Positions 3,877 to 59,099 of a DNA stretch of 64,000 bases are shown here, piece by piece; positions within the stretch are counted from its first letter, which is position 1; each line of letters opens with the position of its first letter. The notes below the pieces were generated by a model. That model ran no database searches, was not told where the DNA came from, and saw nothing but the letters and a program-made list of their open reading frames with translations. The stretch is from Chitinophaga pinensis (GTDB taxonomy: Bacteria > Bacteroidota > Bacteroidia > Chitinophagales > Chitinophagaceae). Both the position numbers and the translations under genes were made by a program. The stretch is taken from NCBI GenBank assembly GCA_902167325.1, contig LR632930.1, positions 4,836,001 through 4,900,000 of the forward strand. The letters run 5' to 3'.

Positions 3877-4179
3877 CTTTCAGGTAATATACGGCACCCG
3901 TATAATCGTTTCCGCTCAATTTGGATGAACGGCTGAATTTGTCGGTGAGCCTTAAGGCCGTGGAAGGCTGTCAACAGGTAGTCTGGAGGCAGTCTAAAGG
4001 CAGTGTAGAGGCAGTCTACACCCAGTAAAAAGGCCGCCCCAAGGCAGTAACAAGGCAGTCTGGACGTAGGAATCGAAGAAATATTTACCTAAAAACGGCC
4101 AAAATGGCCAAAACGGACACTCCCTTTGGCGGTTGACCGTCTTTCTGCTACTTTCGAATTGCCGGGATGAGGGGCTAAC
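3877..4179. other. Intergenic region with a repeat array
   Basis: This stretch between the M60 and metY genes holds no convincing gene. The M60 promoter should lie next to 3877-3950. An 11-bp-period repeat array occupies about 3954-4074. The rest up to the metY terminator shows no feature I can name. Confidence 0.6.
3954..4074 (+). repeat. Tandem array of degenerate 11-bp units (array 1)
   Basis: Consecutive 11-mers fall in register: 3965-3975 aggctgtcaac, 3976-3986 aggtagtctgg, 3987-3997 aggcagtctaa, 3998-4008 aggcagtgtag, 4009-4019 aggcagtctac, 4020-4030 acccagtaaaa, 4031-4041 aggccgcccca, 4042-4052 aggcagtaaca, 4053-4063 aggcagtctgg. A looser unit lies on each side. The consensus is AGGCAGTCTAA. 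The period is exact while the sequence drifts. It is not coding. Related arrays occur at 27597-27900 and 58882-59079. Confidence 0.85.
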
Positions 4180-27403: not shown

Positions 27404-27565
27404 TTAAAACCTGATCCTGGTGCCCGCATTCAGCCCCAAACCGCCAATATTGATATAACTCTTCAAATCATTCGCAGGCGCGTTATCGTTCTTATAATTG
27501 GTTTTAACACCCGTTGCACCCACTGGCGTATTGGAGTTCATAAGCGTTCTATCCTTACTTAACGA
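27404..27565 (-). pseudogene. C-terminal fragment of an outer-membrane beta-barrel protein
   Basis: The last 50 or so residues of a minus-strand frame end in SYINIGGLGLNAGTRIRF, with alternating hydrophobic residues and a terminal Phe, as in outer-membrane barrels. Nothing upstream continues a barrel; the frame runs into the 11-bp repeat array. It is read as a remnant whose 5' part was lost. Confidence 0.4.
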
Positions 27566-27596
27566 TTTAGGTGTTGAAAGGTTTTGACAACGTCTG

Positions 27597-27900
27597 AAGG
27601 CCGTGTCAGGCACTCGTGAAGAAGTCTAATCAGGGTCAAATCCGGGTCTAATAGAAGTGGCAAGGCCCGGGCAAGGGAGTAACAAGGCTCCCAACAAAGG
27701 GCTACGCGGCTGTTGTAAGGCCGTAACAAGGGGGTGAAAGGGTAATTAAACAGGGGGTAAATGGGAGTTACAGAGGGGTTAACAGGCAGTGAAGTATACA
27801 GGAACTCCCCGGTAAACTAACGGTAACTATACAGTAACCGTACAGTAAAGGTGGACTTGATGCGGAGTTAATGCGTATCTGATCTGTAGATGATATATAT
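27597..27900 (+). repeat. Long tandem array of degenerate 11-bp units (array 2)
   Basis: About 27 units stay in an exact 11-base register from 27597, for example 27597-27607 aaggccgtgtc, 27663-27673 aggcccgggca, 27674-27684 agggagtaaca, 27718-27728 aggccgtaaca, 27784-27794 aggcagtgaag, 27828-27838 tatacagtaac and 27872-27882 tgcgtatctga. Units share a central GT and an A-rich end (GTAACA or GTAAA). Similarity fades beyond about 27900. The array is non-coding and in the same orientation as array 1. Confidence 0.85.
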
Positions 27901-28044
27901 CTGATAGCAGGCATATAAAGGGAAGAAAGCGTGCCTGCAACGCATAGAACCGGCTGGCGGAGGAGTTGCCTGCCGTGTAATTTATGGGGCCGTATTGTTT
28001 GATAATGAATTACTTGCAACAAAATTTCCTGTAATGGCGGTGGG

Positions 28045-28809
28045 TTATTCCCGCGGTACGTGAGGCTGATCGTTCTTAGCGGGAGCGGTATTGCGGGATG
28101 GCTCAGGCTGCAGTTTGAGCAGCTTCTTACGGGTATGTGATTTTGTAACCACTACTTCCGTCGTTATGTCTTCAACAACAGCAATAATATCTGCTGCATT
28201 AAGCTTCCGGTCGTAAGACAGGCCGTCTTTCAGGAAGGTCCTCACCTGCAGGGTGATCAGCAGTGTACCTTTGCCGGGTACATCTACCGTCATATCCGCC
28301 CCTTCGAAGGGTTGCTCCAGGTCGATGTGCAGCACGTCTGCATCCATGCCTGTTACAGTACGGGGGGCGAAATCGATCCGGGTGGCGATGAGTTTTACTT
28401 CCATGCGCACGGCGTTTCCAAAGCCCTGTAGCTTTTGAGCAGGGATATGGAGTTTACCATCCTGAGAAAGTACAGGCAGTTCCGGGAAGAACTTCTCAAT
28501 ACCGGCATGCACGTTGAAGCGGAAGCCCTTCACGCCGGCATGGTTATTTCTGCCCGCGGCTACGATGGTACTGTTCAGCCGGTTCACGATCTGCCCGTCG
28601 CAAAGGATATCGATACCCGGAGCAAGCGCGCTGCGGATAAGGGCGCCTTTGCGGCTGGCAGCACCAAACCATTGTGCGGCACGACGGGTATTAACCGTTT
28701 GCCTGACCGTTTCCGGCGCAGAGCGTAAACAGAACTTACCGTTCCGCTTGTAAGCAATCACATTACCGACTTTACCGGTAAATGTGATGACAGAAGTTAA
28801 AAAAGCCAT
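28045..28809 (-). CDS. Bacteroidota-specific protein of unknown function (DUF6266-like start)
   Basis: 254 residues from the ATG at 28809 (seven codons after an alternative ATG). The N-terminus FTGKVGNVIAYKRNGKFCLRS, followed by an Arg/Ala-rich helix RRAAQWFGAASRKGALIRSAL, resembles DUF6266-type proteins, where a GKVGxVVxY strand and an arginine-rich helix recur. The rest is beta-rich. No signal peptide or membrane helix. Function is unknown; some relatives occur near secretion or phage-tail-like genes, but no such neighbours are here. Confidence 0.55.
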   Translation of the reverse strand: MAFLTSVITFTGKVGNVIAYKRNGKFCLRSAPETVRQTVNTRRAAQWFGAASRKGALIRSALAPGIDILCDGQIVNRLNSTIVAAGRNNHAGVKGFRFNVHAGIEKFFPELPVLSQDGKLHIPAQKLQGFGNAVRMEVKLIATRIDFAPRTVTGMDADVLHIDLEQPFEGADMTVDVPGKGTLLITLQVRTFLKDGLSYDRKLNAADIIAVVEDITTEVVVTKSHTRKKLLKLQPEPSRNTAPAKNDQPHVPRE

Positions 28810-58649: not shown

Positions 58650-59099
58650 CTGTTGAAAGTATTCTTATTAACTTTTGTCTGATTCCTTAACCGTTCAACC
58701 ATCATGCACTATGATATTACTAGTAATAAATGCAGCATTTGTAATTGAACATCCTTAACGTCTCTCATGTTATATTTAAATGCTTGTACCTTTGCATAAA
58801 GACAATACTGCAATATTGGTTAACTGTAGTTGCAGATGCCGGACACTCCTCCTCTCTGCCTATCCGATAATACGATTTTAGCCACCTAACATACGCATCA
58901 AGTCCACCTCATCTCCACCTCATCTCCGCCTCATCTCCGCCTTTTATCCGCCTTACACCCCCATTAGACGCTGATTTCACCCGGTATAGACCCGGAGTTC
59001 ACCCCCTCTACACTGCCACCAACACTATTCAGGCAATATACCATCAATCTGGCACCTAAAGATGGTACCCAAATGGCAGTCTTCCTATTCTTCTCTGCA
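58650..59099. other. Gene-free region with repeat array 3
   Basis: 450 bases between convergent genes. The left half (58650-58870) is AT-rich with no gene I can support. The right half holds an 11-bp repeat array. No terminator hairpin was recognised for the minus-strand VOC gene. Confidence 0.55.
58882..59079 (-). repeat. Tandem array of degenerate 11-bp units, opposite orientation (array 3)
   Basis: On the plus strand the units are 58904-58914 ccacctcatct, 58915-58925 ccacctcatct, 58926-58936 ccgcctcatct, 58937-58947 ccgccttttat, 58948-58958 ccgccttacac, 58959-58969 ccccattagac, 58970-58980 gctgatttcac, 58981-58991 ccggtatagac, 58992-59002 ccggagttcac, 59003-59013 cccctctacac. The reverse complement (aggcggagatg in phase) matches arrays 1 and 2. 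The unit at 58882-58892 (ccacctaacat) also fits. Similarity decays beyond about 59024. Confidence 0.8.

Follow-up and report, generated by a model that had tools for sequence, protein, structure and literature searches.

Intergenic 11-bp tandem arrays in Chitinophaga pinensis, some of them at the tail of a dispersed gene-carrying repeat element

We analyzed a 64-kb stretch of the Chitinophaga pinensis genome (contig LR632930.1, positions 4,836,001 to 4,900,000; hereafter the window, whose own coordinates are used below). The genome is a single contig of 6.28 Mb. A gene for a 254-aa protein lies on the minus strand at 28045–28809, and 3' of it come a conserved block that runs from the stop codon to an array (27907–28044, minus strand) and then the array itself, about 27 degenerate units of 11 bp that unit-by-unit alignment places in a single register at 27610–27906 (minus strand). 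The core of these units on the gene strand is TTTAC, and a conserved motif, (C)ATCAAGTCCACCT, which recurs 3' of the gene family, sits in register with the array at 27849–27862 (minus strand). Adjacent to the array, 27404–27613 (minus strand) appears to be left over from the C-terminal part of a longer gene; the coding stretch of C. deserti is longer here, and the C. pinensis genome seems to be short of about 1 kb ending near the array.

Over the 304 bases from 27597 to 27900, lag-11 self-identity reaches 0.502, whereas 1000 first-order Markov simulations give 0.268 (z = 8.8). The harmonics at lags 22, 33, 44, and 55 are also raised (z = 7.4, 3.7, 4.0, and 5.1), and no other lag between 2 and 59 exceeds z = 3. 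In sliding windows, the period-11 signal around the array spans 27578–27984. A preliminary description of this DNA had counted about 27 units in an exact 11-bp register, which is right within a unit or two for both number and coordinates, and the autocorrelation peak above control that it called for is present. It also held that the array is not a CRISPR, and we agree: the units follow one another head to tail, with none of the unique spacers that separate CRISPR repeats.

Period 11 appeared at only three places in the window, and periods 7–10 and 12–15 appeared nowhere in it at the same threshold. The other two arrays, on which the preliminary description was silent, lie at about 3930–4080 (signal 3903–4133) and about 58880–59060 (signal 58816–59088, with units like TCCACCTCATC); both are annotated without a strand, and neither has a gene copy alongside. 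To estimate abundance, we applied a fixed threshold to twenty 20-kb stretches chosen blind and to the window, 464 kb in all. This sample held 16 period-11 segments. The blind stretches, which together make up 400 kb, account for 13 of these arrays, an outcome that bears out the genome-wide search suggested earlier; scaled by proportion, the genome would carry roughly 200. Periods 7, 8, 10, 13, 14, 16, 17, and 19 gave no segment in the 464 kb at this main threshold. Periods 9, 12, 15, and 18 gave 5, 4, 1, and 5, and since these are multiples of three, such segments may come from coding sequence. Locally shuffled sequence (400 kb) yielded no period-11 segment at the main threshold. When the threshold was loosened it yielded 3, and the real stretches gave 17 period-11 segments and at most two for each other tested period (about two each for 7, 8, 10, 14, 16, and 17).

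The arrays are intergenic. ORFs of at least 120 aa cover 86% of the sampled sequence, and none of the 16 segments overlaps one by more than 40 bases, the two that touch one doing so by 1 and 25 bases. Nine of the 16 were called as lying between convergent genes, at least one of the nine wrongly by our crude ORF caller; the miscalled case is the window array, whose left neighbor is a GreA/GreB-type gene on the minus strand. All 20 loci fetched from 43 blastn matches showed period 11, and the carriers of arrays are dispersed, intergenic, and present in several near-identical copies.

The 254-aa gene is itself repeated, with 25 strong, full copies in the C. pinensis genome, none with an internal stop, and one weak partial match. 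The family occurs in 31 of 60 Chitinophaga genomes (C. pinensis included) and in 21 of 147 genomes drawn at the level of the family Chitinophagaceae. Pairwise dN/dS ranges from 0.11 to 0.29 in 13 of 14 pairs and is 0.39 in one near-identical pair, which indicates that the gene is under purifying selection. The window copy shares a conserved C-terminal RE and stop codon with its relatives: among 80 named loci, 68 encode RE as the final two residues and 54 have GGGAAT at the stop. The protein fits no Pfam or NCBIfam family, matches no PDB sequence, and at an E-value of 1e-5 is found on none of 72,556 plasmid or 50,697 phage records; PHROGs gave one weak match, to an entry of unknown function (E = 0.023), and Pfam searches of 62 relatives returned matches to four families, none of them in more than two members. 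We had suspected membership in DUF6266 (PF19781); the DUF6266 model matched neither the protein nor its relatives, genome searches with it matched no genome, controls included, and the literature searched yielded no mention of it. An AlphaFold2 model (mean pLDDT 82) predicts a beta-rich C-terminal domain. Foldseek found nothing for this model at an E-value of 1e-3 or better, and the best VIA-align scores (Z = 6.4, rmsd 3.3 over 96 residues) were with FnIII-like and other beta-sandwich domains, a range that may reflect just a common arrangement.

Gene, block, and array follow one another in a fixed order, with ATCAAGTCCAC in the block and the array at the 3' tail. The window array forms the far, non-coding end of one such element, a gene-carrying repeat whose copies are dispersed through the genome. 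An alignment of 30 of the 39 copies listed is almost free of gaps for 225 columns from the stop codon, and ATCAAGTCCAC stands near the end of this aligned block in 25 of the 30; in three aligned copies (L067, L141, and L144) it comes one unit (10–11 bases) later than elsewhere. ATCAAGTCCAC lies within 450 bases of the stop in 23 of the 25 C. pinensis copies and in 52 of the 80 named loci. On the left, many C. pinensis copies begin abruptly some 180 bases ahead of the start codon (TTTTCGAAAACTTCTAACCC). Of the 25 copies, 18 share TTCGAAA as a left end no more than 230 bases upstream, and the window copy is not among them; no inverted pair could be shown to accompany this end. In C. fulva (L196–L214), a 22-bp inverted repeat, GGATCAAGTTGAAAAGTTGGGG, flanks the copies, its ends lying about 1.3 kb apart. 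With up to 4 mismatches allowed, three of the 11 copies have both ends, seven have a single one, and one has neither; the pair was found in none of the remaining 69 named loci. Breakpoints of near-identical copies, measured from the conserved motif, show no single phase of 11.

Outside C. pinensis, arrays 3' of the gene are regular in a few genomes and sporadic or absent in the rest. C. deserti has 12 at 13 loci, Chitinophaga sp. E66 has 13 segments at 12 loci, and one MAG has an array at its only locus; C. cymbidii, C. ginsengisegetis, C. polysaccharea, and C. ginsengisoli carry them sporadically, and the remaining species among the 80 named loci have none. Since most gene copies outside C. 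deserti and E66 are without an array, the array is not needed for spread of the element. Period-11 arrays away from the gene are rare in the 80 named loci (4 segments, one of them at threshold), where segments of periods 7, 8, 10, and 14 are also present in a few species. Eight other Chitinophaga genomes, sampled at 40 kb each, had no period-11 array and some segments of periods 7, 8, 10, 14, 16, and 17. C. deserti had 3 period-11 segments in 80 kb and none of any other tested period. The monopoly of period 11 is thus a trait of C. pinensis and, in the 80 kb sampled, of C. deserti.

The C. pinensis arrays fall into two classes, those associated with the gene and solo arrays without it. The solo arrays form several dispersed families of near-identical copies, labeled F1–F7 here, and some of these are palindromic and MITE-like, the second arm repeating the units of the first in reverse complement. 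F1 arrays at L216, L221, L223, L224, and L226 terminate in GTTTTGCAAAAC, which recalls TTTTCGAAAA, the sequence with which the gene element starts on its left. A pooled alignment of 23 arrays beat 60 of 60 column permutations, and we considered a universal sequence motif; it was dropped because the signal proved to be carried by the gene-associated arrays. When the set was split, the motif shared by the 11 gene-associated arrays was reached by 0 of 200 permutations, the alignment of the 12 solo arrays alone was equaled by 12 of 200, and the two consensus sequences did not agree (p = 0.36). Common descent explains the motif of the 11 gene-associated arrays. As no motif is common to both classes, a protein, if one is involved, would read spacing and weak features, or there would be several proteins.

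We compared these loci with C. deserti XJ-2 (G058). The window array is 97.2% identical over 289 bp, with one-base gaps only at the edges of the aligned piece, whereas the gene and the flank beside it are 90.7% and 92.1% identical. The comparison of unit number proposed in the preliminary description thus found no unit gained or lost, and at 97% identity the letters here are conserved rather than drifting. Three further unconverted array pairs are 95.2, 93.8, and 90.6% identical, the last with a 25-base offset. With converted elements excluded and a crude ORF filter, arrays overall are 90.8% identical in aligned DNA, other intergenic sequence 91.1%, and ORF-covered sequence 90.4%; the aligned share of length is 97% for arrays and 79% for both other intergenic and ORF-covered sequence. 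Judged by these alignments, the conservation of the window array exceeds the average of its class, and arrays are generally not more conserved in their letters than other aligned intergenic DNA.

The genes themselves evolve in concert at some sites. At six (L049, L051, L053, L054, L063, and L065), the gene is only 72–84% identical to the copy at the same site in C. deserti, the flanks are 88–94% identical, and the gene is 98–99.6% identical to copies elsewhere in the C. pinensis genome; this pattern of high paralog and low same-site identity points to concerted evolution by gene conversion or recopying. Near-identical dispersed copies at 98–99.6% within the genome comprise L063, L065, L066, L068, and L069, and L051, L053, and L054. 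At L048, the element is absent from C. deserti, which has about 66 bases in place of 1199.

For the solo arrays, 24 sites could be compared: 9 of the 10 F1 sites queried, with L228 left out as a partial match, and 15 of 16 other sites, L243 having given no match. With the looser threshold, which gave 3 segments per 400 kb in shuffles, an 11-bp array was called in C. deserti at 21 of the 24, comprising all 9 F1 sites and 12 of the 15 remaining ones; C. deserti has none at L241, L242, and L220. Units differ between the species at 6 of the 21 shared sites, with three clear switches: at L224/L283 and L218/L287, where C. pinensis has F1, both arms of the C. deserti array consist of F6-like units, and at L244/L331, F3 corresponds to F5 units. 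At L217/L317, the corresponding gap in C. deserti holds a larger, different insert that contains an array of another family, and at L237/L325 and L239/L328, the degenerate units differ by eye only. The earlier claim that the period matters while the letters drift therefore describes these sister arrays and fails for the window array. The insertion at L317, an F3 site in C. pinensis, contains an 11-bp palindromic array and no recognized gene copy, and its ends resemble the C. fulva inverted repeat.

Gaps within arrays of the same family measure 11 (L226), 11 and 1 (L230), 10 (L216), 11, 1, and 10 (L219), 11 (L240, an F4 array), and 25 bases (L071). Six of these nine are thus of 10–11 bases, and the rest are two single bases beside an 11 and the one of 25; the events are few. 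Junctions are untidy at the sites where C. deserti lacks the element or array (L048, L241, L242, and L220). An 11-bp target-site duplication was considered as a source of units, and the coordinates at L241 were suggestive; the letters proved to be a chance overlap at two terminators. At L048, L217, L220, L241, and L242, the array or element directly follows a rho-independent-looking terminator, where C. deserti has none or another.

Among known systems, the centromere of plasmid R1, parC, consists of ten 11-bp direct repeats. These resemble the arrays in unit length and direct repetition, and are read by ParR binding in a row, but ParR/parC is one site per plasmid with its own parM and parR, whereas the Chitinophaga arrays are chromosomal and number an estimated 200. 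The nearest published system that we found is BrickBuilt, a MITE of Porphyromonas gingivalis with an internal minisatellite of 23-nt tandem units and 19 copies in one strain (PMC4596501). Both are from Bacteroidota and have dispersed intergenic copies with spacerless tandem units inside an element; BrickBuilt has a 23-nt unit and one sequence family (PMC4596501), whereas the Chitinophaga arrays number an estimated 200, are built on 11 bp, come in several unit families, and in one class accompany a gene. REP/BIME palindromes with their RAYT transposases are likewise many short palindromic intergenic repeats (PMC3733652), but the Chitinophaga units are tandem 11-mers, and the window array, which folds no better than shuffles, is not a palindrome of the 20–40 bp typical of REP. 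The RAYT profile Y1_Tnp (PF01797) has no match in the C. pinensis genome and matches in 5 of 14 control genomes; with no RAYT gene there, we do not place the arrays in REP/RAYT and regard them as a new form of intergenic repeat that belongs to no named family. TAACTGA heptamer repeats, intergenic in Beggiatoaceae, Cyanobacteria, and some Bacteroidetes, form about 170 sets of short tandem repeats in one genome, but unlike the arrays they consist of one 7-bp sequence, and most of those in the genome concerned lie immediately ahead of a start codon (PMC4679880). Bacterial DNA also has a genome-wide A/T periodicity of 10–11 bp, close to the array period, which some authors link to negative supercoiling, a reading disputed in part by PMC7537859; it is a statistical signal of dinucleotides or A-tracts, whereas the arrays are discrete, with tandem units in register (PMC4132750, PMC516772, PMC7537859, and PMC3940949). 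We found no publication on 11-bp arrays or gene-carrying elements in Chitinophaga among the matches listed.

We sought a reading that accommodates the period, the copy number, the gene–block–array order, the intergenic placement, the conservation of the window array in two species, and the replacement of units at some sister sites while the period stays fixed. A length of 11 bp exceeds the 10.5–10.6 bp per turn of relaxed DNA and is near the effective pitch of negatively supercoiled DNA. The reading that we favor, with confidence a little short of even, is that the arrays are helically phased, multi-site putative binding tracts of mobile elements, with their spacing under selection. Each array would be a row of weak putative sites one turn of negatively supercoiled DNA apart, and a putative protein would bind along one face, once per 11 bp; for the elements, such a row may serve as a terminus or a docking tract, and it would let the protein spread along the element end. 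Selection would keep the spacing, arrays would grow and shrink about 11 bp at a time, and copies would be homogenized within a genome by gene conversion or fresh copying. In favor of this reading, 11 is the only one of the tested non-multiple-of-three periods found in the C. pinensis genome; counting against it, no common motif joins the two classes, arrays overall are not extra-conserved, other periods turn up in tandem arrays elsewhere in the genus, and the element spreads in most species with no array attached.

The main rival, which we judge somewhat unlikely, explains much of the data without selection: an ancestral 11-bp array would have spread with mobile elements as a neutral minisatellite of common descent, with turnover of whole units and conversion preserving an inherited period. 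The solo families are indeed dispersed near-identical copies, conversion or recopying is active (paralogs at 98–99.6% against 72–84% to C. deserti at the six sites), and indels of about one unit occur; conversion between families could explain the swapped units too. Harder to accommodate are some 27 units at roughly half identity without one slipped base, the 97% conservation of the window array, unit families that have the period in common but no tested motif, and the lack of any other non-multiple-of-three period in 464 kb at the main threshold (about two segments each at the looser). It is improbable that the arrays act instead as structured single strands, RNA or ssDNA hairpins presenting the same face at each 11-bp turn of the A-form helix. 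As DNA, three solo examples do form hairpins that are much stronger than those of shuffled sequence (z = −4.7, −5.3, and −3.2), and both arms changed together at L224/L283 and L218/L287; the window array, the lone gene-associated array in the folding sample, folds no better than shuffles (z = −0.6 and −0.9), and at gathering scores nothing in Rfam matches the window.

An intrinsic bend from phased A-rich unit ends, as the preliminary description had proposed, is very improbable. Modeled wedge curvature shows a slight excess at the window array (5.5% of shuffles equally high) and at 58.9 kb (4.5%), but none at 4.0 kb (77%), and the test is a weak one. The unit ends were also said to recur on one face; at the model's 10.6 bp per turn, each 11-bp step turns about 13 degrees, so the units leave the common face of relaxed DNA. 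A coding repeat with an 11-residue period can practically be dismissed, although three units make 33 bases and coding is therefore possible, which makes the earlier argument that 11 is not a multiple of three a faulty one. The non-coding verdict itself stood: no ORF of at least 60 aa spans 27597–27900 on either strand, and an 84-aa minus-strand ORF (27768–28022) that covers part of the array is without a Pfam match.

Fixed period with changing letters is what would be expected of DNA read by its spacing and not by its sequence, and arrays with fixed spacing but swapped letters hint at something that reads or builds DNA by an 11-base ruler. Extending the favored reading of the arrays as phased binding tracts, there might be a genome-wide Chitinophaga system in which a putative protein reads, and perhaps builds, DNA by such a ruler, so that spacing and site are inherited while whole unit sets are replaced on both arms at once; we consider this extension unlikely as it stands. 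If a protein is behind the arrays, they would offer a natural setting in which to study the interplay of helical phasing, supercoiling, and the ends of mobile elements in bacteria; if the period is merely inherited, they would be an unusually orderly class of minisatellite. The arrays tag a large unnamed gene family, under purifying selection, that is copied and homogenized around Chitinophaga genomes.
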